From Liolophura sinensis (Eukaryota; Mollusca; Polyplacophora; Chitonida; Chitonidae): DNA of 64,000 nucleotides. How positions within the stretch are numbered: the stretch's first letter is position 1; each line of letters starts with the position of its first letter. Where the stretch lies: the NCBI RefSeq assembly GCF_032854445.1, contig NC_088300.1, positions 72,454,984 through 72,518,983 on the forward strand, given 5' to 3'. The position numbers and the translations under genes were made by a program. The notes below the pieces were generated by a model. The model searched no databases. It saw nothing but the letters and a program-made list of their open reading frames with translations, and was not told where the DNA came from. Shown here in pieces: positions 15,441 to 54,732 of the stretch.

Positions 15441-16572
15441 GTATACCGAATTCTCTCTATACCTGATTCAAACCAGAGCCCAGTTTCACAAAGACATTCG
15501 CACATATAGGACGGCAAAAATATCCTATGACAAATGTACGATAAAAAAATACCATAAACCGCTTTGTGAAACAGGCCCCAGTACCGGATTCTCTCCATAC
15601 CTGACAAACTCCAGGACTCATGGAAGAGACAGCAATACAGTACCGGATTCTCTCCATACCTGAACAAACCCGGGGACTTATAGAAGAGTAATGCAGTACC
15701 GGATTCTTCCCATACCTGACAAACCCCGGGACTTATAGAAGAGTAATACAGTACCGGATTCTCTCCATACCTGACAAACCCCAAGGCTCATGGAGGAAAG
15801 AGTAATACAGTACCGGGTTCTCTCCATACAAGACTAACCCGGGGACATGTTGAGGAAAGAGTAATACAGTACCGGATTCTCTCCATACCTGACAAACCCC
15901 GGGACATGTGGAGGAAAGAGCAATACAGTACCGGAGTCTCCCCATACCTGACAAACCCGGGGACATGTGGAGGAAAGAGCAATACAGTACCGGAGTCTCT
16001 CCATACGTGACAAATCCCGGGACTTATGGAAGAAAGAGTAATACAGTACCGGGTTCTCTCCATACCTGACTAACCCGGGGACATGTGGAGGAAAGAGTAA
16101 TACAGTACCGGATTCTCTCCATACCTGACAAACCCCGGGACATGTGGAGGAAAGAGCAATACAGTACCGGAGTCTCTCCATACGTGACAAATCCCGGGAC
16201 TTATGGAAGAAAGAGTAATACAGTTCCGGATTCTCACCATGCGTGACAAACCCTGGGACTTATGGAAGAAAGAGTAATACAGTACCGGATTCTCTCCATA
16301 CCTGACAAACCCTGGGACTTATGGAAGAAAGAGTAATTCAGTACCGGATTCTCTCCATGCGTGACAAACCCTGGGACATGTTGAGGAAAGAGTAATACAG
16401 TACCGGATTCTCTCCATACCTGACTAACCCGGGGACATGTGGAGGAAAGAGCAATACAGTACCGGAGTCTCCCCATATGTGACAAATCCCGGGACTTATG
16501 GAAGAAAGAGTAATTCAGTACCGGATTCTCTCCATACGTGACAAACCCCAGGACTTATGGAAGAAAGAGAAA
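15441..16572. repeat. 59-bp minisatellite, about 16-17 copies plus an isolated outer unit
   Basis: The unit contains GTACCGGATTCTCTCCATAC, then TGACAAACCCCGGGAC, ATGTGGAGGAAAGAGTAATA and CA. The continuous array runs from about 15581 to 16572. One diverged unit (15441-15473) lies beyond the palindromic element. Unit variants alternate (CGTGACAAATCCC versus CCTGACAAACCCC; ACTTATGGAAG versus ACATGTGGAGG), suggesting higher-order blocks. ORFs here on the minus strand (15437-16485) are by-products. Confidence 0.9.
15474..15589. mobile_element. Small palindromic MITE-like element
   Basis: Inverted arms: GTTTCACAAAG on the left (about 15484-15494) and CTTTGTGAAAC on the right (about 15562-15572), extending imperfectly outward to GAGCCC / AGGCCC. 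The middle is AT-rich. The arms are near-perfect over 11 bp. It splits the outermost unit of the 59-bp array from the rest. Confidence 0.6.
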
Positions 16573-20007: not shown

Positions 20008-21389
20008 TCAGAGCAACTGTACATACCCGTAAGGCAGTGCAGAATCTAATTGAACAGAATCTGACTTCGACTTCAAAGAAACACGCACCGAACCATATGC
20101 TTCGTAGCAGTAATCTAAGCGGGATCTTATCAGTGCTCTGTAAAGTAAAAGCAAGGTGGACTTGTCAGCTCCCCATGATTTACCTGAAATACAGCGCATC
20201 AAATTTATAACCTTCTGACATTTAGTAAACACCATGCTGATGTGATCAGACCAAGTTCGAAGATCATACCCAATTATTTAAATTTACCAGACACTTTAAC
20301 CACACTGCCACCTAGATAGAGAAGTGGTGTATAATTCGGCCGCCTTCTAGTAAACATCACACATTATGTCTTGTCGTCAGCAAATAAAGAGCGCTCGGGA
20401 TTTGGGTTTATAACTGAAGGTAGATCATTGATGGCCAAGTTGAATAAAGCAGGTGACAGAACACTTCCTTGGGGCGTACCGTTCATAATTGGGACAGGAT
20501 GTGAAAAATCTCTTCCAATCCTTACTCTTATAGATCGGTTGGACAAAAAACTTTTTACCCAGCCCAACATCTTACCCCCTATGCCAATGGCTTGCATTTT
20601 CACCGGCAGGCCTTTTCTCCACAACATGTCATACGCCTTTTCTATATCCAAAAAAACTGCAAGAACATATTCTTTATTGATAAGCGAGCGTCTTATTGTA
20701 TTCTCTGGTGTAATGAAATGATCAGTAGTGCATCGGTTCTTTCTGAACCCACTTTGGACAGGCGACAACAAACCATTTTTATCTAAAAACCATGTAAGGT
20801 GAGAGTTTATCATTTTCTCCATAAATTTGCACATTATTGATGTCAAAGCAATAGGACGGTATGATGAGAGTAATGAAAGATTCTTACCAGATTTAGAGAC
20901 AGGAATAACCACAGACCTTTCCAGGAAAGAGGTAGCTGCATGTTTGTCCAGATGGTATTATACAGTGTGAGTAGAACAGAAAGACATTGATCTGGAAGAT
21001 TCTTCCATGGATTGATGGATAAACAATCCATCTTCGCCTGGAGACGAGTCTTTTGACGTATGAAGCGCCTGCTTAAGCTCAAACAGAGAAAAGTCCTCAT
21101 TAATTGGCATGTTATCAAAAGCATTGTTGTCAAACTTACACTTTTCCTCTACTTTATGTTCATGAGTCAGAAAATCAGCAGAATAGTTGTCTGAGCTAGA
21201 TAAGTAGGAAAAACTACTAGCCAAAAGGTTACATTTTTCAACATTGGTGATATATTGGTTACCATCACAAGTGAGAGTAGGCACACTGTTAGATATTATT
21301 ACAGCACCGTTAAGAGAAGATGGGGCGACTCGAGGAGAGGGGAAAGACGAAAGGAGCCCGAGAAAAAATATAGGATTTGGACTTAGCAC
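20008..21389 (-). pseudogene. Decayed non-LTR retrotransposon reverse transcriptase (Jockey-like)
   Basis: Pieces in three minus-strand frames line up in order. The linker before RT (20958-21389) has KQALHTSKDSSPGEDG. The RT palm (20364-20912) has SYRPIALTSIMCKFMEKMI, QSGFRKNRCTTDHF, FLDIEKAYD, NGTPQGSVLSPALFN and the catalytic LFADD. The thumb and post-RT part (20008-20235, extending through stops to about 20350) has GKSWGADKSTLLLLYRALIR followed by SRLDY. Between FADD and the thumb the usual stretch is mostly missing and a stop follows DDKT, so there was an internal deletion. At least two further frame changes lie between 20900 and 21130. No endonuclease, ORF1 or poly-A end is recognisable. 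Clearly dead. Confidence 0.85.
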
Positions 21390-26360: not shown

Positions 26361-29300
26361 GTAAGAGTCCTTTGATTTCGTTTTGAAAAATGTCATTTGT
26401 AAAGTTTTTTAAAAATTAAATTTAACTGTTAATATGCACACAGATGGTGTCAAAATTATATTCTTAAATTTAGTTACCCATCTTATAAAATTAGCAGTCT
26501 GCCAGCAACCTGCGGATGGTGGTGGGTTTTCCACCGGGCTCTGCCCGGTTTCCTACCACCATAATGTTGGCCGCCGTTGAATAAGTGAAATATTCTTGAG
26601 TACGCAGTAAAACACCAATCAAATAAATAAATAAATAAATATAAAATTAGCATATGCTATAAGAGGGATTTTTTTCTTAAAAGATTTTTTCTTGCATTGT
26701 ACACGCTATTATACCTCGTTTTATTTTAATGTTTATTTCATGTCGCGACGCTTAGAGTTTAAAATACATGTATTGTATAGAACACGTTTTTCATAAACCT
26801 TGGGGTCAGTGATAGCTTAACAAGTACCTGGAGGCACCCATGTTTACCTTAAACTTATTACAATGTCGGTTCTTAATTAAACAAGCGGTCGGTAACGTTG
26901 GCTCTGATATAGAGTTTGACAGAAGGACTGTCTCGGCCCAGAACCTCTCAAGCATGCAGTTAGCAGCAGGTTAGATTAGCCACTAATTCAAACTCCACGG
27001 CCTTCAATCTTCATCTCCAAGCCAGAGTTATCATATATATATAAATATATATTTTTACCATAAACTAACATTTATTAATAGACGTATAGGAGAGTATGAG
27101 GAACGTCCCATGGACACAACCCCATTGTGATGTATAGTTTCAAGGCCGTTCCGATACTATTTAGATCAGGGTTTTTTTTTCTGTGCAGAGTTGGTTTTTA
27201 AAAGACGAAAGAATTTATGTGAGATAAGATTAGTTAGTTGATATCGTTCAATTGTTACAACACGCATCCATTGTGAATGCGTTTATATGAAGAAGATGAA
27301 GAATGCAGTGTAGCTTTTGTGCATATCCTCAAATAGCCTGGTAGTGACTACGAAACTCAGGTGTAGTAAACCTGAAGCATATACCTGAAGACAATTTGTA
27401 CAAAGCATTATGTTGTTCAATCTGCATCGAAATAGGTGGCGATTTCTCTGGCTATGCGGCAGAATAAACTCGGTTCTTTTCGAATAATATTTAGTTACAG
27501 TTACGGTGTTGTGTGGTTCACAGGCTGTCACATTCGACAGTCCCTGACCATTGCAGATGAACAACTGTTTATTACGACTTATTGTCTTAGATGTTCTAAT
27601 AACATGTAATAATACCGTGCACCCCCACATACCCATGTATGCAACGGAAGGATAATGTCCCTGGGTGTGACTTTATATAACATGCTTGTTGGATAGTACC
27701 TGTTTTGCCTAGATTGCAGGCAATGTTGAAGGTTGTCGCATTTTGTTTGGTAATAGCTGTAATGATGATGGTATCTGTTGAATTCAATGCTTGTAGGTTT
27801 GGGAGTGAATTTGGGACGCAAACAACCCAATCACGTTGTAGGCATTGCAGGCAGATAAAGTTGTGCTTATTGATTGTTGTTGAACGCCATGCTCAAGAAT
27901 TTTTGACTTACACGATGGCGGCCAATATTTTTAAAGCAATGGATAAGTGGTATGGTCAGCTGAGACTTCTTGGTGGAGAAAGCAATATTTCCCACCTGAT
28001 AGATTAGTGTTAGCCAGCTTTAAGGGACATTATTTTGTGCTCAGCTTGCTTCCCGCTCTGATTTTCTTTTCTTGCCAGAAGCATCCAGTGACTTGAGAAT
28101 CCATCATCTAGGTTGATGGCATGAAAGTGGTACAAACTGTAACATTTGAGTCAAAGGCTAGTTCCATATGCTTGAGGCAGTTGTATTGAAGGACAACCGT
28201 CAAAAGAGACTTCATTAGTCTTATCTATGGTAACATTATGATAAATGGTATCGTCCCATATCTCTGCACCTAACTGAGACGTCAACAGAGACATTAAACC
28301 TCAGGTTGAGGTATGCAGCTTGGTACAGCATTGTGTATACACATTGTAGTACTTGTCCTACAGCACTTGAACAACATACTAGATCAGGAAGCAAAACGTG
28401 AGCGGGATTTTAAGAAAAGTCTCATGTACTCCATCAATTTGTATACAGAGTGTCAATCTATAGGTTGCCCTAATTTGGCTATGTAGTGATGATATCCCGT
28501 GTTTCAAACTTCCTTCTCTACATGTAAGTTTTCCTTAAGAATATTTAATAATTATGCGTCACTCAAGCTTACATCATTGAGTTTATGCGATCATTATGCA
28601 TGTACTGTCCCGATAGTGGCTTGAAACCTGAGATATCTGATATGACAAGAAGACTTTAATGTGTAATAATATGGCAGAGACGGGAGGTCACCGACGACGA
28701 CACACTAGGCTAATATTTCACGAACATTTGTGCAGGAATAATTGGTGGTCGATCGTGGCATCGCGGCTGAGATGTTTCTCTTTGATTGGCCGGTCACGAT
28801 CATATGGCTAATTCCAAGGCCGAAAATCTGTGCGACAAATGTGAGAAATTTGGTTCAACTCGCCGATGGTTTGCTCCAGACACTTCGGTTTCCTTCACCC
28901 ATAAAGATTGCCATCGTGTAAGCGAAACATTTTTGAGTACCCCTTTAACCTCGAACTAATCAAATCCGTGAAATTTCTAAACTATTCAAGATATGTTTGT
29001 TTAGAATTTGTTGATATACTACCATTTGGAATTTGGCTGAATCACACGCCTGCCTTTTGATGCACCATTTAGGCCGTGGCTAAACTACTACATGACATAC
29101 TTTTGATGCACCATTTAGGCCGTGTCTAAACTACTACATGACATACTTTTGATGCACCATTTAGGCCGTGGCTAAACTACTACATGACATACTTTTGATG
29201 CACCATTTAGGCCGAGGCTAAACTACTACATGACATACTTCTGATGCACCATTTAGGCCGTGGCTAAACTTCTACATGACATACTTTTGATGCTCCATTT

Positions 29301-32300
29301 AGGCCGTGGCTAAACTTCTACATGACATATTTTTGATACATCATTTAGGCCGTGGCAAAACTTCTACGTGACATACTTTTGATGCACCATTTAAGCTGAG
29401 GCTAAACTACTACATGACATACTTTTGATGCACCATTTAGGCCGTGACTAAACTTCTACATGACATACTTTTGATGCACCATTTAGGCCGTAGGCTAAAC
29501 TTCTACATGACATACTTTTGATGCACCATTTAAGCCGTGGCTAAACTTCTACATGACATACTTTTGATGCACCATTTAGGCCGTGGCTAAACTTCTACAT
29601 GACATACATTTGATGCACCATTTAGGCCGTGACTAAACTATTACATGACATACCTTTGATGCACCATTTAGGCCGTGGCTAAACTACTACATGACATACC
29701 TTTGATGCACCATTTAGGCCGTGGCTAAACTTCTACATGACATACTTTTCATGCACCATTTAAGCCGAGGCTAAACTTCTACATGACATACTTTTGATGC
29801 ACCATTTAGGCTGAGGCTAAACTTCTACATGACATACTTTTGATGCACCATTTAGGCTGAGGCTAAACTTCTACATGACATACTTTTGATGCACCATTTA
29901 GGCCGTGGCTGTACATGGCGTTCTTTGAATGCACCATTAGACTAAAGTTCCAGGTAACATTCTTCTGGGTCACCACTTGGCTGACCATCGTATTCGAGGC
30001 TTTTCATACATAATTTCATCATAATGGCTCAACTATTTAAATGCCAGACTTTGGATGCACCGTTCAACTTTTATGATTGAACGTCAACAGGCTACTTTGT
30101 CCAAGTTTGTTTCGGTGCACCTTTGGTGTCTTCTTAAATAATCTGATTTTGAATAAATGTTGAACAAAATGACTACAGTTAATTGATTTGGAGCGATAAT
30201 TGAAAATGTGAAGACGTATGAAGTGAACAAAATCATAGCGTATGGATTCTCCAACGTACACAGTTTTACGGGTTACAGTTTACTGTGTATTTTATTGTGT
30301 AATGTTGTTTAATTTACTTTCACCTTTTTTTTTTTTTGATGAATGCAGTGGTCGCCGAGACAAGTTCCATCAACATCCAAGAGGGCTTTCCGGAGGAGCT
30401 CCACGTATCGCTGTATATCGACGACAATAGGCCCATGCACATGCGCCTAAAGAGGAGCAGCACGCTGGATTCAAATGTGCCGCTCTTTGTCATATGCAAT
30501 GGCTCACTATTCGAGAAGAACGGCACGAATGATTTGGTAAGATCTGATAACACATAGTAGAGGTAGAAAAAAGTCACGATTCAAATTAAAATACATTATG
30601 AACTTATCCAGGTCAATCAGACATGGACTGGGGTCCCGGTGTAAATATCCCCGTTACGACTGGGTCATGTCACCTACAACCGGTTTGGTAGCGGAGCGTG
30701 GGACTAGCACTGACCTAGGGCACAAAGCCAGTTCACTTCCGCGCAGAGGTAATAATCGGCATTAGTTCGATGATTATCAGATATGTATTTTTTAAAATTT
30801 ATTTGTGCATTGACAATGGATTTATTGTTCCCTTTTTCTGCGAGTTAACTGTTTATTAAATTAGAATGAAGATAATTAGAGAGATTAAATGCAGATCGTT
30901 GATAGCAAATAACACATCGTAAGTGAACATAAAGCGCTTGCCCTGAGGCGGTACATGTACCAAATTTCCATTTATGATTGTAGATCAAAGTGACCATAGA
31001 CGTTAATTCACTCATTCCAATGGCCTTTAAATAGATACAACCAATACGGTCACTGTGAGCCCATGCTGGCTTCCTCTCCGGTCGTAAGTGGGAATGTCTT
31101 GCAGCAATCTGAGGATGGTCGTGTGTTTCTCACGGGTTTACACCCACCATAATACTGGCTGCCGTCGTTTAAATGAAATATTCTTATTTACAAATAAATA
31201 AATAAATAATTAATTACGTTAATCAATTATGAACATTCACATTTTTTTAAAGCTCACGGGTGTATCTCTTTAATACCTTGATATTTCTTATTCAGTAAAA
31301 GTTTGTCATATTCTGTACTTGTACTTACGTTTTACACCCTCTTTCACGGTCTAACCTACATAGTTTTCCTGTTTGGGCATTTCATTCATAAATATCGCGT
31401 CCGGTTAGTCACGTGGATTTTCTAGATGAGTCTCGGGTATCTCCATTGGATATCCGTCAATGTCCACCGCTTGATGCTATTCTCAGATCGCCATGGACCG
31501 ATATCTAATCACCACATCTTAAAATAGATAAATAAGGTTAATATAGGGATTGCCCCAAGGAAAAGTGTGTCAGGATTAACTTGCCCGAGCGAGAACTTGC
31601 GGCGATGATGTGAGAGCAGTACACGCGGATCAAATGTGAATGGCCACAGGCTGGCTTTACAGTAACACTCTGTGACAAAAGCCTTACACAATTAAGTCTC
31701 GGAATTTGATTCAGAGACATCCAATTGTCCACACAACTCAACAAGCCAAAAATTATAAAACAGCACTATTGTGTCATTTGATATTGAAGCAATCGTTCAT
31801 TAGAAAGGCCAAAAATACCGTCGATAAAAACAATGTAATACCCTTGATATTACATGTCCATCTATCAGCACAAGGCTCATATATTACATATACGTGTACA
31901 CAGTTGCATAACACCCTGTAATAGACCCTGTTGATATTTCTCAGCAATATCGATGAAATACCGATGATTACATCATACTTTGCAAGCAGACTTAAATTAA
32001 ATTACATCAATAAGTGTCTTTTATCTACACATTAATTATTAAATGCAGTTGTTCAATTCAGTTAGTTACTACGCCAGTACAAGTCACTTAACATACACCT
32101 CGGCAATCAACCAGTCATACAAACAGTCTGATAATTAATTAGTCAATAAATTAATAAAAAGAACATTTAGCAACAAATAGTCAATCAGTCACTGATACTC
32201 ATACAGTCAGTTAACATTGTATGGAAGGAGTCAGTGAAACATGAATCAGTGTATTCCGTTAGCCCACTACTGACACAGTGGTAGGTATTAGGCTGTTAAC

Positions 32301-44300: not shown

Positions 44301-47048
44301 GTGAAAAGTGCTTCGCGATTCCTTTTGCTCAAGTGATGATGAAATTTGTTTGGCACATTTCATAATGTATTATATTTTGACTTATTGACCGCTGGATAAA
44401 ATAAAATTTATGTTTATTATTTCACATAATGTGCTATGCTTTATTTCGGTTCGCTTTGACAGGTGGATTTACGGTATTCAAGTATCATCACCATAGACTT
44501 CAGCCTGTGTGTCAAGCTTTCTGCTTACGTCATTGCAACTGTAAGTTTATTAGGCTTAAAACGGTGTAAAATGTTCAGAAACCAATAGTTATAGTTTCTT
44601 ATTTCCCTATATCTTAGGAGCCTTCCCTTATACACCATCAACATTTGGGTGTATAGACGTAAGCTACGGCCTTGACAATGTCTCCCAGATATCAGTATCA
44701 TTGATTATTTAGGAACGTATTGTCTAGTACAGTCTGCGGTATGTTTTCTCTCATTCTCCTTAATAAATCCATGCAGCGACTACAGTGTGATAGCTGGTAA
44801 ATTGTTACAAGTAACCGATGAAATACGACCTTTTGTCTCTCATTCTCCTTAATAAATCCATGCAACGATCACAGTGTGGTAGCTGGTAAATTGTTACAAG
44901 TAACAGATGAAATACGACCTTTTCTCTCCCATTCTCCTTAATAAATCCATGCAGCGACTACAGTGTGATAGCTGGTAAATTGTTACAAGTAACCGATGAG
45001 ATACGACCTTTTGTCAATTCACCTTAGTTAGCATTGTCTGTCTGCTCAGCGTTGTATACCCTAACTTCCCAGACTAAGCGGGATTCCCCATGGACGGAAA
45101 CTAAAAACGTGGGCGGGGCTGTGGATGGTGCTGATGTCCTTCCCTTCTTTAGAACCTGGTCGATCCACAACGGTGGGAAGATTGGTCCATACGACCACAT
45201 ACAGCTGTTCACCGGGTGAGTGTCAGCTAATAAACTCAAAAGCTGATGGAATTGAGTGGCCTCCCCTGATGCCCTTTTCAACAAAACATCACAGAGAGCG
45301 TAACTATAACATGTGTTGATTTTATTGGCCTATCAAGCCAATGAAATAATGTTTCACAGTTCACTTAAATAATCGGTAACCTTTTCTAATATGTGCGCAG
45401 CTATGTACCTGATCGTTGTTAGTTTGATTGTTACCTTAGAATTCAACATCGTTTTTCATTTTTATTTCAATCATATAAGAACTTGTTTTCTACTGTTAGT
45501 ATGAATAGTGCTATCTAACTTACTTACCTTGCCGGAAACACCAGCCATGATTCACGTAAAGTCGTCCTATTAGAGTTCTATATGTGGCCCTGTGTTAGAT
45601 TATCCTCCGATATCACAATGTACAGAATGCACGGAATGTTCATATTAGATCCTGTTTCTTACAGGTACGATGTAAAGACAGGGGGAGATACATCCGCTGT
45701 GGGTAGGTAAACTTCACCACCACCTTATCTGTTGGCTTTAAGAAACAGACCACCTGTAAATTAAATTACACATAGATCAAAAGACATGGTTTTCTTGTCT
45801 ATTTGTTACAGGTCTGAGCTACATCCGTTCCACGTGCCTGAAATCTTGGGCCGTGTCTGTAATATTCATGTCTATGTGTTACAGGTCTGAGGTACATCAG
45901 TTCCATTTGCCTGAAATCTTGGGCGGCGTCTGTAATATTCATGCCTATCTGTTACAGGTCTGAGCTACATCCGTTTCACGTGCCTGAAATCTTGGGCCGT
46001 GTCTGTAATATTCATGCCTATCTGTTACAGGTCTGAGTTACATCAGTTCTATTTGCCTGAAATCCTGGGCCGTGTCTGTAATATTCATGCCTATCTGTTA
46101 CAGGTCTGAGTTACATCAGTTCTATTTGCCTGAAATCCTGGGCCGTGTCTGTAATATTCATGCCTATCTGTTACAGGTCTGAGTTACATCAGTTCTATTT
46201 GCCTGAGATCTCGGGCCGTGTCTGTAATATTCATGCCTATCTGTTACAGGTCTGAGTTACATCAGTTCTATTTGCCTGAAATCCTGGGCCGTGTCTGTAA
46301 TATTCATGCCTATCTGTTACAGGTCTGAGTTACATCAGTTCTATTTGCCTGAGATCTCGGGCCGTGTCTGTAATATTCATGCCTATCTGTTACAGGTCTG
46401 AGTTACATCAGCTCTATTTGCCTGAAATCCTGGGCCGTGTCTGTAATATTCATGCCTATCTGTTACAGGTCTGAGTTACATCAGTTCTATTTGCCTGAAA
46501 TCCTGGGCCGTGTCTGTAATATTCATGCCTATCTGTTACAGGTCTGAGTTACATCAGCTCTATTTGCCTGAAATCCTGGGCCGTGTCTATTGTGGAGGAT
46601 AACCAAGACATGATGCACACAACTACGGCTTCCACACATGAGATAGGCCATAGGTAATGAACCACGCCCTGCTGGGAACGCAACCAAAATAAGCAGAACT
46701 TTAATCAGTAGCTATTATACTTGTATTCATGTAAATTTCCAGGCATATTTTCTTCTTTCATTTTGATCAAAACCTAGTGCATGTGTCTCTCTAACTAGGA
46801 ACTTCGTTACTCTTCCACACAGTTTTAATATGCATTCTGTGACCCATGGAAACCAAGAATAAACTGTTCACAGCCAGTATTTACAGTTAAAAGAGCAGGT
46901 ATTATTTTCTGTAAAATATTTTCATTGAGACCAATTTTGAGTATGACACTGAATAAATTCTTTCCTTCTCAAAAATACACATGAGAATATACATGTACAC
47001 AGTAGTTTGCACATGAGTAGTTTCAGTTGTACCTATTTGTTTATTTAC

Positions 47049-47079
<31 letters not shown>

Positions 47080-50000
47080 TGACTGGTGTATTACATCGTA
47101 CGAAAATATTTCACCTATAAGCAACGAGAAAAATGTGGGGATGAGACCGGACCAAGTCTTAGGATGCCCCGCGAAGCTGGCCTGACACATGAAAAGTCTT
47201 GCAACGTAATACCACATCGGGCGTAATGCGCAAGCGCGAGTAGTCTCAAAGATAGTCAATAAATAAATATGATAGTGCTTTTATATTTTCAGCTGGAAAA
47301 CATAAGTGTACATACAAATCCACCTTGTTCAGTCAAATGCAGCGTACGCTAACCTGCGACTGGCATGTCGCTAAAGCAAAACCTCTCATCTCAAACCAAT
47401 CGTACTGTTATGTCGCAAAAGCCAACCTCTCATCTGAAATCAACCATACTGTTATGTCGCAAAAGCCAACCTCTCATCTGAACTCAATCATACTGTTATG
47501 TCGGTAAAGCAAACGGAAAACAGCTACACATTACTCCATGCTTGACGGTATAGGACAGCCATTCATATATCCTATTTTCTCTTCAGTTTAGGTGCCTATC
47601 ACGACGGTCACAGAAATGTCTGCCCAAAATCCTCAAAGTACATTATGTCGCCGAAGATAGGACAGCCGAGCAGCGCGGATGAACTAAATCCATGGAGATT
47701 CTCACAATGTTCCGTCAGCTATTTTGCCAAAACATTAAGGCTTCTAAAACGGTAAGTTTCTAGTTCCTGGAGCCAAAATTGAATTGGTGGTGGGAGGGGG
47801 GAGTAGGCACATAATAAACATATCCACATATTAAACAAACCGCACATAATACTGTACAGTAACCAACTTACGTTGGTCAGTTAAGTCATATAAATAGGGG
47901 AGACAACTGCGAATTTGTCACATAAGAGTGACATACATTTTAATTTATTTGTCATAGGAGTACAATTAGGCATATTCTTACAACAGAATACGCTAAAAAT
48001 GTAAAAATGGAGGAACTACAATTAACAACACACCTGTGATCAAGAAATTATTTCGCATACAGCTTATTTATTTGGACAGTCCAAAATAATGAAAGCAGAA
48101 TAATCTAATGCGCGGAACTTTAAGCACTTCTTCTGTAAGAGGGCTTCAATGGATAGAACAACTTTGTGAAACAGTTTTGACTTCGGTGATCATATTTTGA
48201 TGTTGGTATTTCGGATAAGAATTTCTTACCTTCGTGCATTGGCCGTAAAGTTTAAAATAGTTATGCACGCATTATTATTAAAGTTCACATTTAAAATGTA
48301 ACCTCAGATCTGTTGATTGACAGGTATGGCATTGACTGCATCAGCGACAAGCCCCGACTCCTTGGCGACCGCCAGTGGAAATCTTACACACGGAATCTGC
48401 CGGGACAACTGTACCCTCCAGACCAACAGTGTAGATTGATGCACGGAGATACATCCTTCATGAGCCGGAAACTCCTACAAGAGAGGGTAAGTGTTTTGTA
48501 GCTAGTTCCTCCAAGAGAGAGTAAGTGTTTTGTGCCTAGTTGAGTGTAGATTGATGCACGGTAATACATCCTTCATGAGCCGGAAACTCCTCCAGGAGAG
48601 AGTGCGTGTTTTGTATCCATAGTGTAGACTGATGGATGGTAATACATCCTTCATGAAGCGGAAACTCCTCCAGGAGAGAGCACGTGTTTTGTAGCTAGTT
48701 TAGTGTAGATTAATGCACGGTAATACATCCTTCATGAGCCGGAACTCCTCCAGGAGAGAGTACGTGTTTTGTATACATAGTGTATACTGATGGACGGTAA
48801 TACATCCTTCATGAAGCGGAAACTCCTCCAGGAGAGAGTACGTGTTTTCTATCCATAGTGTAGACTGATGGACGATAATACATCCTTCATGAAGCGGAAA
48901 CTCCTCCAGGAGAGAGCACGTGTTTTGTACCTAGTTGAGTGTAGATTGATGGACGGTAATACATCCTTCATGAGCAGGAAACTCCCCCAGGAGAGAGTAC
49001 GTGTTTTGTACCTTGTTGAGTGTAGATTGATGCACGGTAATACATCCTTCATGAAGCGGAAACTCCTCCAGGAGAGAGCACGTGTTTTGTACCTAGGTGA
49101 GTGTAGATTGATGAACGGTAATACATCCTTCATGAGCCGGAAACTCCTCCAGGAGAGAGTAGGTGGTTTGTATCTATAGTGTAGACTGATGGACGATAAT
49201 ACATCCTTCATGAGCCGGAAACTCCTCCAGGAGAGAGTACGTGTTTTGTATCCATAGTGTAGACTGATGGACGGTAATACATCCTTCATGAGCTGGAAAC
49301 TCCTCCAGAAGAGAGCACGTGTTTTGTATCCATAGTGTAGACTGGTGGACGGTAATACATCCTTCATGAGCCGGAAACTCCTCCAGGAGAGAGTACGTGT
49401 TTTGTAGCTAGTTTAGTGTAGACTGATGGATGGTAATACATCCTTCATGAGCCGGCACTCCTCCAGGAGAGAGTACGTGTTTTGTACCTTGTTGAGTGTA
49501 GATTGATGGACGGTAATACATCCTTCATGAGCCAAAAACTCCCCCAGGAGAGAGTACGTGTTTTGTACCTTGTTGAGTGTAGATTGATGGACGGTAATAC
49601 ATCCTTCATGAAGCGGAAACTCCTCCAGGAGAGAGCACGTGTTTTGTACCTAGTTGAGTGTAGATTGATGGACGGTAATACATCCTTCATGAGCCGGAAA
49701 CTCCTCCAGGAGAGAGTAGGTGGTTTGTATCTATAGTGTAGACTGATGGACGGTAATACATCCTTCATGAGCCGGAAACTCCTCCAGGAGAGAGTAGGTG
49801 GTTTGTATCTATAGTGTAGACTGATGGACGATAATACATCCTTCATGAGCCGGCACTCCTCCAGGAGAGAGCACGTGTTTTGTATCCATAGTGTAGACTG
49901 ATGGACGGTAATACATCCTTCATGAGCCGGAAACTCCTCCAGGAGAGAGTACGTGTTTTGTATCCATAGTGTAGACTGATGGATGGTAATACATCCTTCA

Positions 50001-53000
50001 TGAAGCGGAAACTCCTCCAGGAGAGAGCACGTGTTTTGTACCTAGTTGAGTGTAGATTGATGGACGGTAATACATCCTTCATGAGCCGGAAACTCCCCCA
50101 GGAGAGAGTACGTGTTTTGTACCTTGTTGAGTGTAGATTGATGGACGGTAATACATCCTTCATGAAGCGGAAACTCCTCCAGGAGAGAGCACGTGTTTTG
50201 TACCTAGTTGAGTGTAGATTGATGGACGGTAATACATCCTTCATGAGCCGGAAACTCCTCCAGGAGAGAGTAGGTGGTTTGTATCTATAGTGTAGACTGA
50301 TGGACGATAATACATCCTTCATGAGCCAGAAACTCCTCCAGGAGAGAGTACGTGTTTTGTATCCATAGTGTAGACTGATGGACGGTAATACATCCTTCAT
50401 GAGCCGGAAACTCCTCCAGGAGAGAGCACGTGTTTTGTACCTTGTTGAGTGTAGATTGATGGACGGTAATACATCCTTCATGAGCCGGAAACTCCCCCAG
50501 GAGAGAGTAGGTGGTTTGTATCTATAATGTAGACTGATGGACGATAATACATCCTTCATGAGCCGGAAACTCCTCCAGGAGAGAGTAGGTTGTTTGTATC
50601 TATAGTGTAGACTGATGGACGATAATACATCCTTCATGAGCTGGAAACTCCTCCAGGAGAGAGTAGGTGGTTTGTATCTATAGTGTAGACTGATGGACGA
50701 TAATACATCCTTCATGAGCTGGGAACTCCTCCAGGAGAAAGTACGTGTTTTGTATCTATAGTGTAGACTGATGGACGGTAATACATCCTTCATGAGCCGG
50801 AAACTCCTCCAGGAGAGAGTACGTGTTTTGTATCCATAGTGTAGACTGATGGACGATAATACATCCTTCATGAAGCGGAAACTCCTCCAGGAGAGAGTAC
50901 GTGTTTTGTAGCTAGTTGAGTGTAGATTGATGGACGCTGATACATCCTTCATGAGCCGGAAACTCCTCCAGGAGAGAGTACGTGTTTTGTATCCATAGTG
51001 TATACTGATGGACGGTAATACATCCTTCATGAGCCGGAAACTCCTTCAGGAGAGAGTACGTGTTTTGTAGCTAGTTGAGTGTAGATTGATGGACGCTGAT
51101 ACATCCTTCATGAGCCGAAACTTTTCCAGGAGAGAGTACGTGTTTTGTATCCATAGTGTATACTGATGGACGGTAATACATCCTTCATGAGCCGGATCTC
51201 TACCAGGAGAGAGTACGTGTTTTGTATCCATAGTGTAGACTGATGGACGGTAATACATCCTTCATGAGGCGGAACTCCTCCAGGAGAGAGTACGTGTTTT
51301 GTATCTATAGTGTAGACTGATGGACGATAATACATTATTCATGAGCCGGAAACTCCTCCAGGAGAGAGTACGTGTTTTGTAGCTAGTTTAGTGTAGACTG
51401 ATGGACGATAATACATCCTTCATGAGCTGGGAACTCCTCCAGGAGAAAGTACGTGTTTTGTATCTATAGTGTAGACTGATGGACGGTAATACATCCTTCA
51501 TGAGCCGGAAACTCCTCCAGGAGAGAGTACGTGTTTTGTATCCATAGTGTAGACTGATGGACGATAATACATCCTTCATGAAGCGGAAACTCCTCCAGGA
51601 GAGAGTACGTGTTTTGTAGCTAGTTGAGTGTAGATTGATGGACGCTGATACATCCTTCATGAGCCGGAAACTCCTCCAGGAGAGAGTACGTGTTTTGTAT
51701 CCATAGTGTATACTGATGGACGGTAATACATCCTTCATGAGCCGGAAACTCCTTCAGGAGAGAGTACGTGTTTTGTAGCTAGTTGAGTGTAGATTGATGG
51801 ACGCTGATACATCCTTCATGAGCCGAAACTTTTCCAGGAGAGAGTACGTGTTTTGTATCCATAGTGTATACTGATGGACGGTAATACATCCTTCATGAGC
51901 CGGATCTCTACCAGGAGAGAGTACGTGTTTTGTATCCATAGTGTATACTGATGGACGGTAATACATCCTTCATGAGGCGGAACTCCTCCAGGAGAGAGTA
52001 CGTGTTTTGTATCTATAGTGTAGACTGATGGACGATAATACATTATTCATGAGCCGGAAACTCCTCCAGGAGAGAGTACGTGTTTTGTAGCTAGTTTAGT
52101 GTAGACTGATGGACGGTAATACTCCCTTCATGAGCCGGAAACTCCACCAGGAGAGAGTGCGTGGTTTGTGCCAAGTTCAGTGTGTCCTGATGCATGTAGG
52201 TACATCGTTCATAAATCCATTTCTTTACAGAGAATAGCAGCCTTTACAACTGTCTATGTGATGATAAGAGTAATTTCCCTTGTCTAGTACTACACGCTAA
52301 TGCGAGTGGTTCTTGCTCAACTCCTGATCCAGCCCCTGCTAGCAAACAAATAGATTCTTGTGTCCCATTGGTCCACCCTAGTCAGGATTACATCACAATT
52401 CCTATTAGTACCTATTTAAACCTTATTTATTGTCTCCTAAGGATGTGCCAACAGAAAACCGCATTTGGACAAATAGCATTATCCGAGGCCACGAAATTGA
52501 GTACATTTTCTGTCCTTCACAGACGTTACCCAATATATGTACGGGGATGTGGTGTCATTCGGGAGGGTCAAAGTTCACATTTCACATCCCAGCCCGAGGC
52601 ACGTCGTGTGGAGACAAGAAGGTCAGTAATATATTTAAGACGTAGGGCACAGAGAGAAAAACCGGAGCAGCGACGACGGTGTGATAGCTGGCAAATGCTC
52701 ACACTTAGCCGTTGAAATACAGCCTCTTGTCAGTATACCGCAGTTAGGTTTTATTCTAACGGTTCACATAAATGCTTAATTAGTAGCAAATTACACGCCC
52801 CCTAGCACCATGGCTTAACTAGAATTAGGTAAAAAAAGCTACAGTGATGTTAATTGCAATATATTAGATGTCACTGATCTAGATTTAATCAAAATGCTGT
52901 GTTGTCATCACATTTTACATACAATCACATTAAAACAATGCACAGGCACCAGGTCTCGGGGATGCTTAGTCCATCAGCAGAATCCTGGCTTATGAATGAA

Positions 53001-54732
53001 TGAATGATTATGGCTTAACGCTCCTGGCTTATGCAGGAATACAATATAATTAAGACGTATAATTCTAAAAAGACAAAACATGTTTTTGCTTTATTTTGAT
53101 CGACATAGCTAATATCTAGTACTTCTAATAGCAGGGAAAAAACTTGTACGTTACAAATAGCTTTATATAATCTGACTTCCTATGAATGTTGATAACTTAT
53201 TACCAATAATTATGATAATTTCAGAAACGTTTTTATACATTTCCTATCAGTTCTGTTTTTTTTTTCTATTTTCAGTGGTGTATTGACGGAAAATGTCAGG
53301 TCAACGCTACAGCTCCCTTTATGAATGGTAAATATTAAAACTTTTGTATTATGTCATGTCATTCGTGAGATAATTAATCTCTCATAACGATGTTTGTTAC
53401 TGCATAATTATAAACAGATTTGCTCAGATACGGATTAGCCAATGACGTTAAATCATACATGCAACGATAAATGTACACGTGAATGTCAAAGAAATGCATG
53501 TTCCTTTAACATACCTACATGCAAAACATAGTAAGTAAAGTACATTCTCCCCACATATCTGCCATTTGTTTTCATTCCATCATATGCCGTTAATAAACAA
53601 TTTTTTTGTTTATAACTGTATAAAGCCAATTGTACACAATTTCCATATGATCTGAAATTAGGCTAATCTGTGTTGAAATTATGTGAAACCTCTTCCTCTG
53701 TTTCGACCAGAACAATGTCCGTTCGGCGATTTTGTCACGGATATTTTCGTGGGATGGACCTGTAAACGCCTTGTGCAACACTGGGATTATCTCTGCATCT
53801 GGGATTACCAAGGCATGAAGAAGAAGTGCTGCGATTCCTGTGCGCCTGTTCTCCGTAAATCTCGTGGGAAAAGATCTCTGCTGCGGTCACCTAGTGACAA
53901 GGAGATAAAAAGGGAGTTAAACAGACGAGCCCTGCTTAAAGGACGGCGTTCTAGAAGTATAGGACAAACATCTCTAGACCAATCGTCCTTAGTTCATTTA
54001 GGCCTACTACAGGCTAAAACAAAAAGGAAACGACACATATCATCGCAAACAGGTAATTACTTTTATATAGTTTAATACTTTGATGGATTGCCAATTAAGA
54101 TAAACGATGTCATATTTAAATGATACATGAGTCATGTAAATTTTGGTAAGGTTAATTTAAATTAACCGCTGGTTTTTGTGTGTTGTTGTTCTGTTTTGAA
54201 AATAAATCTGATACAGGCGCATTCGCATTTTACCTTATATTTAAGAATAGCTATCTTTTACTTGCCTCGTGGGTGACTCCAAAGGTACGAGCTAATATTT
54301 ATTTATTTAACTGATGTTTTACGCCGTACTCAAGAATATTTCACTTATATGACGGCGGCCAGCATTATTTTTGCGAGCTAATAAGCCAAATCAGTTGCCA
54401 AAAGGTTTGAATATGTAAGATGTTTACATTCACTCTGATAACTATGATAACTAGGGATCAGTTGCCTTGTCTCACCCAAGCCTACATGCGAGAGCGCTCA
54501 AGACTGCTTAAATGAAACTACGGCATGATTTATATTAGCTCTGCCTGTTTGATTCAACTTGAAAACGTCATGTTAATTTATCTGGTGCATATACATTAAC
54601 TTTATACACAATTTTTAGGAAATTTATTTGAACAAAATTATTTCTTCAGGTATTCGCGGGTCCTCATATTACCTCTCTACCTCCGTACATTTGGATGGGT
54701 TCGTTTTCGACAACCTGCCGATGGCTGCGTAG
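26279..54732 (+). CDS. Secreted ADAMTS/MIG-17-like zinc metalloprotease (16 exons, 707 aa)
   Basis: Whole-gene entry; exons follow separately. Sixteen exons join with matching phases at GT-AG introns into 2124 nt. Predicted protein: signal peptide (1 to about 27); M12B-type prodomain (about 28-189) ending in furin motif RSKR (186-189); catalytic domain (about 190-435) starting CVELVAVISYD, with zinc motif HEIGHSLGAYHD (His375, Glu376, His379, His385) and Met-turn YIMSP (Met400); ADAMTS-type cysteine-rich module (about 440-557; PGQLYPPDQQC, GTSCGDKKWCIDGKC); six-cysteine PLAC/ShK-like module (569-610, ending KKKCCDSC); basic tail with PC-like sites; short C-terminus. Family knowledge: such enzymes are secreted and remodel extracellular matrix. 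No thrombospondin repeats, which resembles nematode MIG-17 more than classical ADAMTS. All catalytic residues are intact. Uncertain points: the exon 8 acceptor and the last exon. Confidence 0.92.
26502..26641 (+). mobile_element. SINE-like dispersed repeat, well preserved
   Basis: Body GTCTGCCAGCAACCTGCGGA, TTTCCTACCACCATAATGTT and GGCCGCCGTTG, then GTGAAATATTCTTGAGTACG, AACACCAATC and an AAAT tail. The clearest 3' half of the family in this window. Confidence 0.8.
27868..27990 (-). mobile_element. SINE-like dispersed repeat, fragment
   Basis: TTGTTGAACGCCATGCTCAAGAATTTTTGACTTACACGATGGCGGCCA, in reverse orientation relative to the 26502 copy. Confidence 0.55.
28795..28970 (+). mobile_element. 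SINE-like dispersed repeat, diverged
   Basis: GGTTCAACTCGCCGATGGTTTGCTCCAGACACTTCGGTTTCCTTCACCCATAAAG, then GCGAAACATTTTTGAGTACC. Same body type as the copy at 18880. Confidence 0.5.
29054..29912. repeat. 46-bp minisatellite in intron 1, about 18-19 copies
   Basis: The unit is CTTTTGATGCACCATTTAGG, CCGTGGCTAAACTTCTACAT, GACATA. Copies are mostly 90 percent or more alike by eye; main variants are CTTCTAC/CTACTAC and CCGTGG/CTGAGG. Decayed pieces continue to about 30065. Confidence 0.92.
30349..30536 (+). CDS. Metalloprotease exon 2 (prodomain)
   Basis: Residues 28-90, starting VVAETSS and including GFPEELHVSLYIDDNRPMH and LDSNVPLFV, the pattern of reprolysin-type propeptides. Ends in phase 0; donor GTAAGA. 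Confidence 0.9.
31055..31212 (+). mobile_element. SINE-like dispersed repeat
   Basis: CCATGCTGGCTTCCTCTCCG, GTGGGAATGTCTTGCAGCAATCTGAGGATGG, CACCCACCATAATACTGGCTGCCGTCG, GTGAAATATTCTT-type core and an AAAT tail. Confidence 0.75.
35450..35625 (+). mobile_element. SINE-like dispersed repeat
   Basis: CGACCTGCCGATGGTCCTGA, TTGGTTTCCTCCCTCCATATTGCTGG, then TGTGAAATATTCTTGAATAC, GGCGTAATACACCAACCAAATAAAT. Confidence 0.75.
37945..38146. repeat. Short tandem repeat, about 45-bp unit, about 4 copies
   Basis: Repeats of AGCAGATATGTTACATTGTTGCACTTGTACACTTTGTTTCCTC with changes. Confidence 0.75.
38382..38408 (+). repeat. G-rich tract in intron 2
   Basis: GTGGGGGGTGGGGTGGGGTG GGG in short: at least four runs of four G separated by T, a canonical G-quadruplex pattern on the sense strand of the gene. 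Confidence 0.75.
39052..39138 (+). CDS. Metalloprotease exon 3 (prodomain)
   Basis: Residues 91-119, phase 0 at both ends; AAQFYQDIDTGAAIELSC is followed by DNSTEEC. Acceptor TTGCTTACAG, donor GTAAGT. Confidence 0.88.
39139..41606 (+). other. Intron 3 (2.5 kb)
   Basis: No repeat or gene recognised. Confidence 0.6.
41607..41745 (+). CDS. Metalloprotease exon 4 (prodomain)
   Basis: Residues 120-165 plus one base. FYQDKILYELSPF then AISHIKKRSTDSHQ; the Y-x-L-x-P pattern is typical of ADAM/ADAMTS propeptides. Donor GTAAGT. The minus-strand ORF at 41538-42008 overlaps it and is a shadow. Confidence 0.9.
41965..42030 (+). mobile_element. SINE-like 3' end fragment in intron 4
   Basis: TAGTATTCTTGCGTATGCCATTAAGCAACGATCAAATAAATAAATTG: only the terminal core and AAAT tail. 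Confidence 0.55.
42124..42200 (+). repeat. Dispersed repeat X, copy 1 (intron 4)
   Basis: CAGCCTCTTGTCAGTTTACC, then AGTCAGGGTTTTATTCTAAC and AATGCATAAATAGTAGCAA. Matches the copy at 52665-52799. Family not recognised. Confidence 0.6.
42287..42419 (+). CDS. Metalloprotease exon 5 (furin site, start of catalytic domain)
   Basis: Phase 1 in, phase 2 out; residues 166-210. Includes QRSKRSYKEPRCVELVAVIS: a consensus furin motif RSKR, then the first beta strand of the M12B catalytic domain. Donor GTAAGT. Confidence 0.93.
42420..43990 (+). other. Intron 5 (1.6 kb)
   Basis: Contains a 144-codon plus-strand ORF (42979-43413) with no recognisable domain and no splice logic linking it to the gene. 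Treated as chance. Confidence 0.6.
43991..44084 (+). CDS. Metalloprotease exon 6 (catalytic domain)
   Basis: Residues 210-241: RWYKLSPHFDKTARENDALFNIRRYFAMVVQG, shown here in pieces RWYKLSPHFDK and NIRRYFAMVVQG. Matches the helix and strand that follow the first strand in M12B enzymes. Acceptor CTTTCAG, donor GTATGT. Confidence 0.9.
44155..44280 (+). mobile_element. SINE-like dispersed repeat in intron 6
   Basis: GGGCTCTGCCCTGTTTCCGT, CACCCATGACC and a decayed core ending ATCAATCAGATAACTAAATG. Confidence 0.45.
44463..44540 (+). CDS. Metalloprotease exon 7 (catalytic domain)
   Basis: Residues 242-267, VDLRYSSIITIDFSLCVKLS then AYVIAT; phase 0 at both ends. Acceptor TTTGACAG, donor GTAAGT. 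Confidence 0.9.
44747..45016. repeat. 89-bp tandem repeat, 3 copies, abutting exon 8 (repeat X, copy 2)
   Basis: The unit begins TCTCTCATTCTCCTTAATAA and contains CAGCGACTACAGTGTGATAGCTGG and GATGAAATACGACCTTTTGTC. The period is 89 bp twice. The unit is homologous to the dispersed repeat at 52665 (GCAGCGACGACGGTGTGATAGCTGG ... TTGAAATACAGCCTCTTGTCAGT). The last copy runs into TTCACCTTAGTTAG, which contains the predicted exon 8 acceptor. Confidence 0.9.
45028..45215 (+). CDS. Metalloprotease exon 8 (catalytic domain)
   Basis: Residues 268-330: ALYTLTSQTKRDSPWTETKN, VDGADVLPFFRTWSIHN and YDHIQLFTG; the last is the conserved strand before the active site. The only phase-0 acceptor is CACCTTAG at 45027, directly after an in-frame TAG, which adds LALSVCS at the exon start. 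The better-looking acceptor TCTGTCTGCTCAG (exon from 45050) would bring a stop after four codons. The start is therefore less certain than the body. Donor GTGAGT. Confidence 0.85.
45665..45702 (+). CDS. Metalloprotease exon 9 (38-nt micro-exon)
   Basis: Residues 330-343: GYDVKTGGDTSAVG across both junctions. Acceptor TTTCTTACAG, donor GTAGGT. Continues LFTG into GYDV as in other M12B enzymes. Confidence 0.88.
45812..46541 (+). repeat. 73-bp array of exon 10 acceptor copies (10 extra copies in intron 9)
   Basis: Units start at 45812, 45885, 45958, 46031, 46104, 46177, 46250, 46323, 46396 and 46469, exactly 73 bp apart without indels. The eleventh start, 46542, is the real exon 10. Each unit holds the first 47 nt of exon 10 (GTCTGAGTTACATCAG...GGCCGTGTCT), then 26 nt ending CTATCTGTTACAG, i.e. 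the intron end and acceptor. The three leftmost units are the most diverged. Every unit is a complete decoy 3' splice site. Confidence 0.97.
46542..46653 (+). CDS. Metalloprotease exon 10 (first half of zinc site)
   Basis: Residues 343-380, GLSYISSICLKSWAVSIVED then NQDMMHTTTASTHEIGH. Holds His375, Glu376 and His379 of the zinc motif. Phase 1 in, phase 2 out, donor GTAATG. Its first 47 nt are the seed of the array on its left. Confidence 0.95.
47038..47262 (-). mobile_element. SINE-like dispersed repeat in intron 10
   Basis: (TTTA)n tail of about 40 bp at 47041-47080, then GACTGGTGTATTACATCGTA and AAATATTTCACCTATAAGCAACG. The body ends GAAAAGTCTTGCAACGTAAT. Confidence 0.65.
47367..47515. repeat. 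44-bp tandem repeat, 3 copies, in intron 10
   Basis: GTCGCAAAAGCCAACCTCTC ATCTGAAATCAACCATACTG TTAT in three near-identical units, 70 bp before exon 11. Confidence 0.85.
47587..47751 (+). CDS. Metalloprotease exon 11 (second half of zinc site, Met-turn)
   Basis: Residues 380-435. LGAYHDGHRNVCPKSSKYIM supplies the third zinc ligand His385 and Met400 of the Met-turn. LNPWRFSQCSVSYF is the terminal helix of ADAMTS-type catalytic domains. Phase 2 in and out; donor GTAAGT. Confidence 0.95.
48324..48486 (+). CDS. Metalloprotease exon 12 (disintegrin-like / cysteine-rich start)
   Basis: Residues 435-489: YGIDCISDKPR, LPGQLYPPDQQCRLMHGDTS and FMSRKLLQER. The PG-x-x-Y-x-x-x-QQC pattern is the usual start of the ADAMTS disintegrin-like region. 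Donor GTAAGTG. If this donor is missed, translation ends after VSVL at 48501. Its last about 60 nt seed the large array on its right. Confidence 0.94.
48487..52190 (+). repeat. 78/81-bp array of exon 12 end plus donor (about 47 copies) in intron 12
   Basis: The unit is TGTAGATTGATGGACGGTAA, TACATCCTTCATGAGCCGGA, AACTCCTCCAGGAGAGAGTA, CGTGTTTTGTA, then one of two linkers (TCCATAG giving 78 bp, or CCTAGTTGAG / GCTAGTTGAG giving 81 bp). It copies the exon 12 stretch coding CRLMHGDTSFMSRKLLQER and its donor (original AGAGG/GTAAGTGTTTTGTAG). Many units keep GTACGT or GTAGGT at the donor; others have GCACGT, which removes the GT. Both unit lengths are multiples of three, so long false ORFs appear on both strands (up to 395 codons minus). 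Confidence 0.97.
50690..52110. repeat. 708-bp higher-order duplication inside the exon 12 array
   Basis: Nine-unit block repeated once: for instance the segments starting near 51046, 51108 and 51335 recur at 51754, 51816 and 52043, and the stretch left of 51030 recurs left of 51738, all exactly 708 bp apart. Rare variants (GAGCTGGGAACTCC, GGACGCTGATAC, GAGCCGAAACTTTTCC, CGGATCTCTACC) occur in the same order in both blocks. Confidence 0.92.
52442..52621 (+). CDS. Metalloprotease exon 13 (ADAMTS-type cysteine-rich module)
   Basis: Residues 490-549, phase 0 at both ends: HEIEYIFCPSQTLPNICTGM, WCHSGGSKFTFH and IPARGTSCGDKK. Matches the C-x4-WC...P-x-x-GT-x-CG pattern of ADAMTS cysteine-rich modules. 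Acceptor TTGTCTCCTAAG, donor GTCAGT. Confidence 0.94.
52665..52799 (+). repeat. Dispersed repeat X, copy 3 (intron 13)
   Basis: Fullest copy: GCAGCGACGACGGTGTGATA, GCCGTTGAAATACAGCCTCT, TATACCGCAGTTAGGTTTTA and CATAAATGCTTAATTAGTAG. Links the copy at 42124 (right part) with the 89-bp units at 44747 (left part). Confidence 0.7.
53276..53327 (+). CDS. Metalloprotease exon 14 (end of cysteine-rich module)
   Basis: Residues 550-566, WCIDGKCQVNATAPFMN. Completes KKWCIDGKC. Acceptor with a long T run, CTATTTTCAG; donor GTAAAT. Confidence 0.93.
53711..54052 (+). CDS. Metalloprotease exon 15 (PLAC/ShK-like module and basic tail)
   Basis: Residues 567-681. Six cysteines at 569, 584, 595, 606, 607 and 610; CIWDYQGMKKKCCDSC matches the CC-x2-C ending of PLAC modules and the Met...C..SC ending of ShK toxin-like domains. 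Then a lysine/arginine-rich tail with SRGKRS, GRRSRS and KRKRH. Acceptor TTTCGACCAG. If the donor GTAATT at 54053 is ignored, the frame ends at 54075 (NYFYIV), a possible alternative C-terminus. Confidence 0.9.
54295..54375 (-). mobile_element. SINE-like 3' end in intron 15
   Basis: TATTTATTTAACTGATGTTT, TACGCCGTACTCAAGAATATTTCACTTATATGACGGCGGCCAGCA (in short pieces), the cleanest reverse copy of the family core. Truncated after it. Confidence 0.7.
54650..54732 (+). CDS. Metalloprotease exon 16 (last coding exon)
   Basis: Phase 1 in; IRGSSYYLSTSVHLDGFVFD then NLPMAA and TAG. Acceptor TTATTTCTTCAG. No domain. Supported by phase and a good acceptor only; the alternative is reading into intron 15. 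Confidence 0.65.

Follow-up and report, generated by a model that had tools for sequence, protein, structure and literature searches.

Tandem duplications of splice boundaries, involving either the 5′ or the 3′ edges of exons, have been described in amphioxus and named mirages (PMC3087553), and further cases have been reported there for PGBD5, Adh and TnC (PMC3902484). In the sections of the first report consulted here, splice signals are retained in many of the copies and, according to its authors, RT-PCR and Adh3 data suggest that regular splicing is not disturbed. As far as the consulted portions of the published work go, mirages have so far been an amphioxus peculiarity; a literature search for splice-boundary minisatellites retrieved, within the same portions, no case from a mollusc, and the mollusc papers that it returned concern other things. 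Exon-adjacent tandem units, each with a splice signal, are also found in the VNTR of intron 18 of human ABCA7, in which every 25-bp unit begins with a donor; there, longer VNTRs are accompanied by more skipping of exon 19 and lower expression, and the retention of one unit is unchanged (PMC5954066, main passages). Moreover, the Rogers model, as cited in PMC3087553, derives new introns from AGGT proto-splice sites duplicated in tandem. Which of several neighbouring sites is used has been addressed with human data and minigenes: in introns longer than 250 nt the sites closest across the exon win, in short introns those closest across the intron, and for 3′ sites of the long-intron class the upstream preference is reduced, not fully reversed (PMC9225289, in the parts consulted).

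In a window of 64,000 nucleotides we found eleven copies of an intron/exon junction (array A) and, in the same gene, a larger set of copies of an exon/intron junction (array B). Array A is probably a further instance of this rare kind of repeat, apparently in a phylum new for it. As in the amphioxus cases described in the consulted parts of PMC3087553 and PMC3902484 (Adh3, the globins BflGb6 and BflGb9, TnC and PGBD5), minisatellite-like copies span exon/intron boundaries (11 in array A and 46 in array B), the copy next to the exon body would supply the coding sequence, and splice signals persist in many copies (11/11 and, among the full copies of array B, 37/46). Unlike them, the host is a mollusc, the unit of 73 bp has 10 upstream copies, a 46-copy donor array lies in the same gene, and the locus is known from genome sequence alone; that the published mirages, as far as consulted, belong to cephalochordates concerns range and not structure. 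The ABCA7 VNTR differs from array A in its 25-bp, donor-first units and in that the correlation between length and skipping was shown by RNA (PMC5954066, main passages). Array A resembles the Rogers model, in the part of it cited, in that its units run GT...AG and its duplicated edge is AG/GT (the slash marks the splice site), and departs from it in that no new intron or exon is seen, the boundary being old and common to a paralog.

Results

The host gene and its reading frame

A profile search of the 609 Mb assembly with PF14830 gave 8 matches, which all fall within a stretch of 11.4 kb on contig C8. A gene with eight haemocyanin units is a molluscan trait, and this eight-fold cluster identifies the host as a mollusc; amphioxus, also considered as the source, was rejected on this ground.

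Once joined, the exon at 45153-45215 and exons 9 to 12 (Table 1) form a single open frame, which continues through exon 13, the exon at 53276-53327 and one exon from 53711; the numbers 9 and 10 follow the numbering of the original prediction. The joined frame contains HEIGHSLGAYH (HExxHxxGxxH), as in ADAMTS-like M12B metalloproteases, and its product exceeds the cut-off for PF01421 (Reprolysin, 49.9 bits) and PF17771 (ADAMTS cysteine-rich domain 2, 60.7 bits). Furthermore, the first five exons of this frame matched 42 distinct PDB chains, including ADAMTS-1, -4, -5 and -13 and venom reprolysins. Judged from its predicted product, the host gene is an ADAMTS-like reprolysin.

Table 1. Coordinates of the arrays and of the neighbouring exons (window positions unless a locus is given; U1 values refer to pairing with the donor).
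Feature	Coordinates	Strand	Details
Exon 9	45665..45702	+	Donor GG/GTAGGT at 45703, U1 duplex -11.6; open joined frame
Intron 9	45703..46541	+	839 nt; exon 9 donor to first acceptor copy only 109 nt
Left breakpoint repeat (intron)	45796..45803	+	TGTCTATT
Array A, unit 1	45796..45858	+	Partial on intron side; acceptor (first exon base) 45812
Array A, units 2-10	45859..46515	+	Nine 73-bp copies; acceptors 45885, 45958, 46031, 46104, 46177, 46250, 46323, 46396, 46469
Array A, unit 11	46516..46588	+	End of the real intron, start of exon 10; acceptor 46542
Exon 10	46542..46653	+	112 nt, codes HEIGH; weak donor ATAG/GTAATG at 46654, U1 duplex -6.5
Right breakpoint repeat (exon 10)	46584..46591	+	TGTCTATT
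Exon 11	47587..47751	+	LGAYHDGH...; joined frame
Exon 12	48324..48486	+	Real donor AGG/GTAAGT at 48487, U1 duplex -11.9
Array B	48507..52169	+	Exon 12 end and donor repeated in 46 full copies and a 34-bp partial one, spacing 77-81 bp
Exon 13	52523..52621	+	Frame and splice signals
L048 array (paralog)	L048:277-961		Contig C3; HELGH exon end and donor in 42-bp units

All 11 acceptors of array A were tried as entries into the frame. Since 73 = 3 × 24 + 1, entry upstream of the real acceptor shifts the frame, and a stop was reached in 10/10 cases, nine times at a TGA two units on (at 45961, the start of unit 3, for entry at unit 1) and, for entry one unit early, at the TAA at 46600 inside exon 10. 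The zinc motif HEIGH was retained from 46542 only. The original prediction was borne out for the two entries that it had traced (one unit early and at unit 1), for the zinc motif and for the place of the real exon 10 start in the eleventh and last unit. A paralog 82 kb upstream has a homologous exon of 109 nt with the same AG/GT start and no array, and this speaks for placing the true start of exon 10 at 46542; by this comparison the exon 10 boundary is old and shared with the paralog.

In the rest of the window, on the minus strand, we observed a long ORF, retroelement gag-like by eye (138-2120), a reverse-transcriptase ORF (RVT_1, 20364-20957) and a bHLH protein with 67% identity to the protein P0002 (59392-60036).

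Structure and origin of the array in intron 9

The string TTACAG/GTCTGAG occurs 11 times in the window, at ten intervals of exactly 73 bp and with no indels, and TRF scored the array at 10.9 copies and 1377, far beyond chance. The acceptor is intact in 11/11 units. The units had been announced as ten exact copies: the spacing is indeed exact, whereas the sequences of units 1 to 10 differ from unit 11 by 14, 8, 8, 1, 1, 4, 1, 4, 0 and 1 mismatches per 73 bases, so that only unit 9 is identical to the real one. Similarly, the composition of 26 nt of intron end and 47 nt of exon start holds for units 2-10, and unit 1 shares only approximately the last 16 nt on its intron side. Units 4, 5, 7 and 10 are identical to each other, as are units 6 and 8, and units 9 and 11. 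Divergence is greatest in the three leftmost units, and the units near the exon share types, in agreement with the homogenisation near the exon that had been suggested, and the identity of unit 11 with unit 9 indicates that the real exon start itself took part in the turnover. Array A is real as assembled sequence; the window is placed once at 100% in the assembly, a result that shows only agreement with its own assembly.

In units 3-11, 0/26 intron columns and 10/47 exon columns vary (p = 0.011), a pattern that could mean that the acceptors are under constraint; the same test gave p = 0.12 for units 2-11, 0.29 for units 4-11 and 1.0 for units 1-11. Selection keeping the decoy acceptors was considered and dropped as unproven, since p moves from 0.011 to 1.0 with the choice of units.

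The 8-nt sequence TGTCTATT is found at each of the two breakpoints of the repeat; as a chance control, 22-bp windows were paired at random about 20,000 times, and 107 of the pairs share an 8-mer or longer. The 73-bp unit corresponds to the 58 nt between the two TGTCTATT copies plus about 15 nt of filler. These features suggest a microhomology duplication followed by expansion: a duplication between the two copies flanking the acceptor, with the filler, may have produced the 73-bp unit, and expansion and homogenisation including the real exon start, to which the unit identities point, would then have led to 11 copies.

Choice among the acceptors

From -20 to +3, 9/11 acceptors, the real one among them, have the same letters, hence the choice among these must come from outside the unit. 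As originally proposed, splice-site choice can fairly be tested on this natural locus, because local acceptor strength cannot discriminate the units. With 839 nt for intron 9 and 933 nt for intron 10, the exon-centric rule favours the last acceptor; the exon 9 donor is at the same time so close to the first copy that short-intron rules would favour the first. On the proximity rules, exon definition would most likely favour the acceptor at 46542, and the copies are probably ignored by the cell; some leakage onto them is plausible, given the weak exon 10 donor and the nearness of the first copy.

A second array in intron 12

Array B, which did not figure in the original prediction, is a second boundary array of the same gene, on the donor side, and it exceeds array A in size. 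Its 46 full copies carry GTACGT (28), GCACGT (9), GTAGGT (7) or GTGCGT (2), thus GT is kept in 37/46 and GC is found in 9/46, with U1 pairing from -1.4 to -7.2; in the partial copy the donor is GTAAGT (-8.3). Of all these donors, the real one of exon 12 pairs most strongly with U1. The copies are degenerate and their edge reads AGA/GT, not AG/GT.

A predicted protein of 157 aa, P0001, from a contig of 3,209 bases, was the sole match among 29 candidates, and 20/20 of its matches in this genome are exon 12 and its copies. The protein runs through exon 12, the intron start, one diverged copy (0/500 shuffles reached its score) and then other sequence. This layout points to a difference in the copy number of array B, with the proviso that the contig may be collapsed; the array has either expanded in this genome, or contracted or been collapsed in the contig of P0001.

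Boundary arrays in paralogs and their frequency

The edges of paralogous exons were examined at loci L041-L056, without the own-gene loci L050 and L055. Of the 35 paralog exon matches, three are repeats of one gene; the other 32 exons have 64 edges, taken as the tblastn ends with 30 bases on either side. One edge in 64 is copied, at 47/60 bases, all the others reaching at most 32; in the host gene, 2/16 exon edges are copied (for exon 15 the position of the last edge was an arbitrary choice). The copied paralog edge lies in L048, where TRF found 16.3 units of 42 bp. Among the 15 positions listed for this array, the real one included, GT is present in 13 of the 14 others, and the donors of four copies match the real one in strength (-11.5 or -11.6 vs -11.5). 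Moreover, the similar paralogs L051 and L052 differ beside an acceptor, with one copy of a 32-bp intron unit in L051:1460-1510 and about six in L052:1299-1510, which indicates that such arrays are born recently.

Minisatellites, defined by a period of 20 or more and a TRF score of 50 or more, form 68 arrays in the surrounding 284 kb and cover 26,093 of 284,000 bases (9.2%). Boundary arrays are not in excess: across the host gene and its paralogs 3/80 edges are copied vs about 7 expected from minisatellite coverage, the former figure being a rough lower bound from these genes only. With this coverage and no excess at the edges, a guarding or dosage role is not needed.

Two long minisatellites of the window lie at 15579-16569 (59 bp × 16.9) and 29054-29910 (46 bp × 18.6), and within the 284 kb at least 156 ORFs cross array edges. 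An element with TTTTACGCCGTACTCAAGAATATTTCAC, which we take to resemble a dispersed SINE, was observed at 54300-54370; it recurs beside the array of L048 and, in reverse orientation, in the flanks.

Discussion

Array A is probably a mirage minisatellite, seeded by chance on the intron/exon junction of an ADAMTS-like gene, spliced out by exon definition and without a dedicated function. The region is rich in minisatellites, one of which would have been seeded at the junction; only unit 11 continues as a full exon, whose donor follows at 112 nt, and its acceptor would therefore be the one used, and the ten upstream copies would be removed as part of the intron. Stray use of a copy leads in the frame to a premature stop, presumably followed by mRNA decay. 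This reading is based on the exact 73-bp register, the stops met by the ten early entries and the identical acceptors in 9/11 units, as well as on the arrays of the same kind at the exon 12 donor and at a paralog donor, with fewer copied edges than expected. The breakpoint repeat, the arrayless paralog exon, the copy difference between L051 and L052 and the single copy of P0001 argue in the same direction, and so do the amphioxus arrays reported as harmless to regular splicing and the exon-centric proximity rule. Against it weigh the distance of 109 nt between the exon 9 donor and the first copy, the incomplete reversal of upstream preference for 3′ sites in the human data, the weak exon 10 donor and the invariant intron columns of units 3-11.

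A functional role had been envisaged, in which the array guards the catalytic exon and copy number tunes the amount of active enzyme. Such a decoy array, whose copy number would set the use of poison acceptors or the skipping of exon 10, is in keeping with every early entry being a dead end and with the intact acceptors; loss of the 112-nt exon 10 would by arithmetic also shift the frame, and in human ABCA7 a longer VNTR goes with more exon 19 skipping and lower expression. We consider it unlikely, since boundary arrays with degenerate copies occur also at the donor edge of the host gene and in a paralog, exon edges show no array excess, and in ABCA7 the retention of units is constant across VNTR length (PMC5954066, main passages). 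Guarding is thus not upheld, also in view of the minisatellite coverage and of the splicing reported as undisturbed in amphioxus (PMC3087553, in the sections consulted), and on the same grounds tuning is unsupported, although ABCA7, its nearest support, leaves room for it. The units, reading GTCTGAG...TTACAG over 73 nt, could alternatively erase themselves: a splice onto a copy would leave GT at the joint, the remainder would be removed later by recursive splicing, and the mRNA would always be the same. In the pre-mRNA, U1 pairing of CAG/GTCTGAG (-6.3 to -7.1) is near that of the exon 10 donor, and the AG/GT edge is common to the paralog; however, the regenerated site drops to -4.5 once joined to exon 9, GTCTGA is far from the strong GTRAGT-like 5′ site expected after AG at a ratchet point, 73 nt make a short intron, and the copies of array B read AGA/GT. 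Recursive splicing was therefore downgraded as the main reading, for its weak regenerated donor and for the lack of the AG/GT register in array B, and we regard it as quite improbable. It is highly improbable, in turn, that the real genome has fewer copies of array A and that the assembly is in error; several units are identical, as such an artefact would have it, but units 1-3 and 6/8 have private differences whose pattern is ordered, and independent boundary arrays exist in intron 12 and in L048.

A broader proposal is that boundary minisatellites are recurrent and of fast turnover in molluscs, hidden by exon definition with AG/GT re-splicing, with copy number leaking into enzyme dose; taken as a whole, this is rather unlikely. 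If true, two rules would compete in array A over identical sites of a single natural transcript: the intron-centric one, with unit 1 at 109 nt, and the exon-centric one, with 112 nt between unit 11 and its donor.

That one molluscan gene family holds three cases suggests that mirages may arise wherever minisatellites are often born, and that they are tolerated by splicing. In array A, nine acceptors alike from -20 to +3 and two near copies stand in one transcript, on which proximity rules would be testable without designed mutations.
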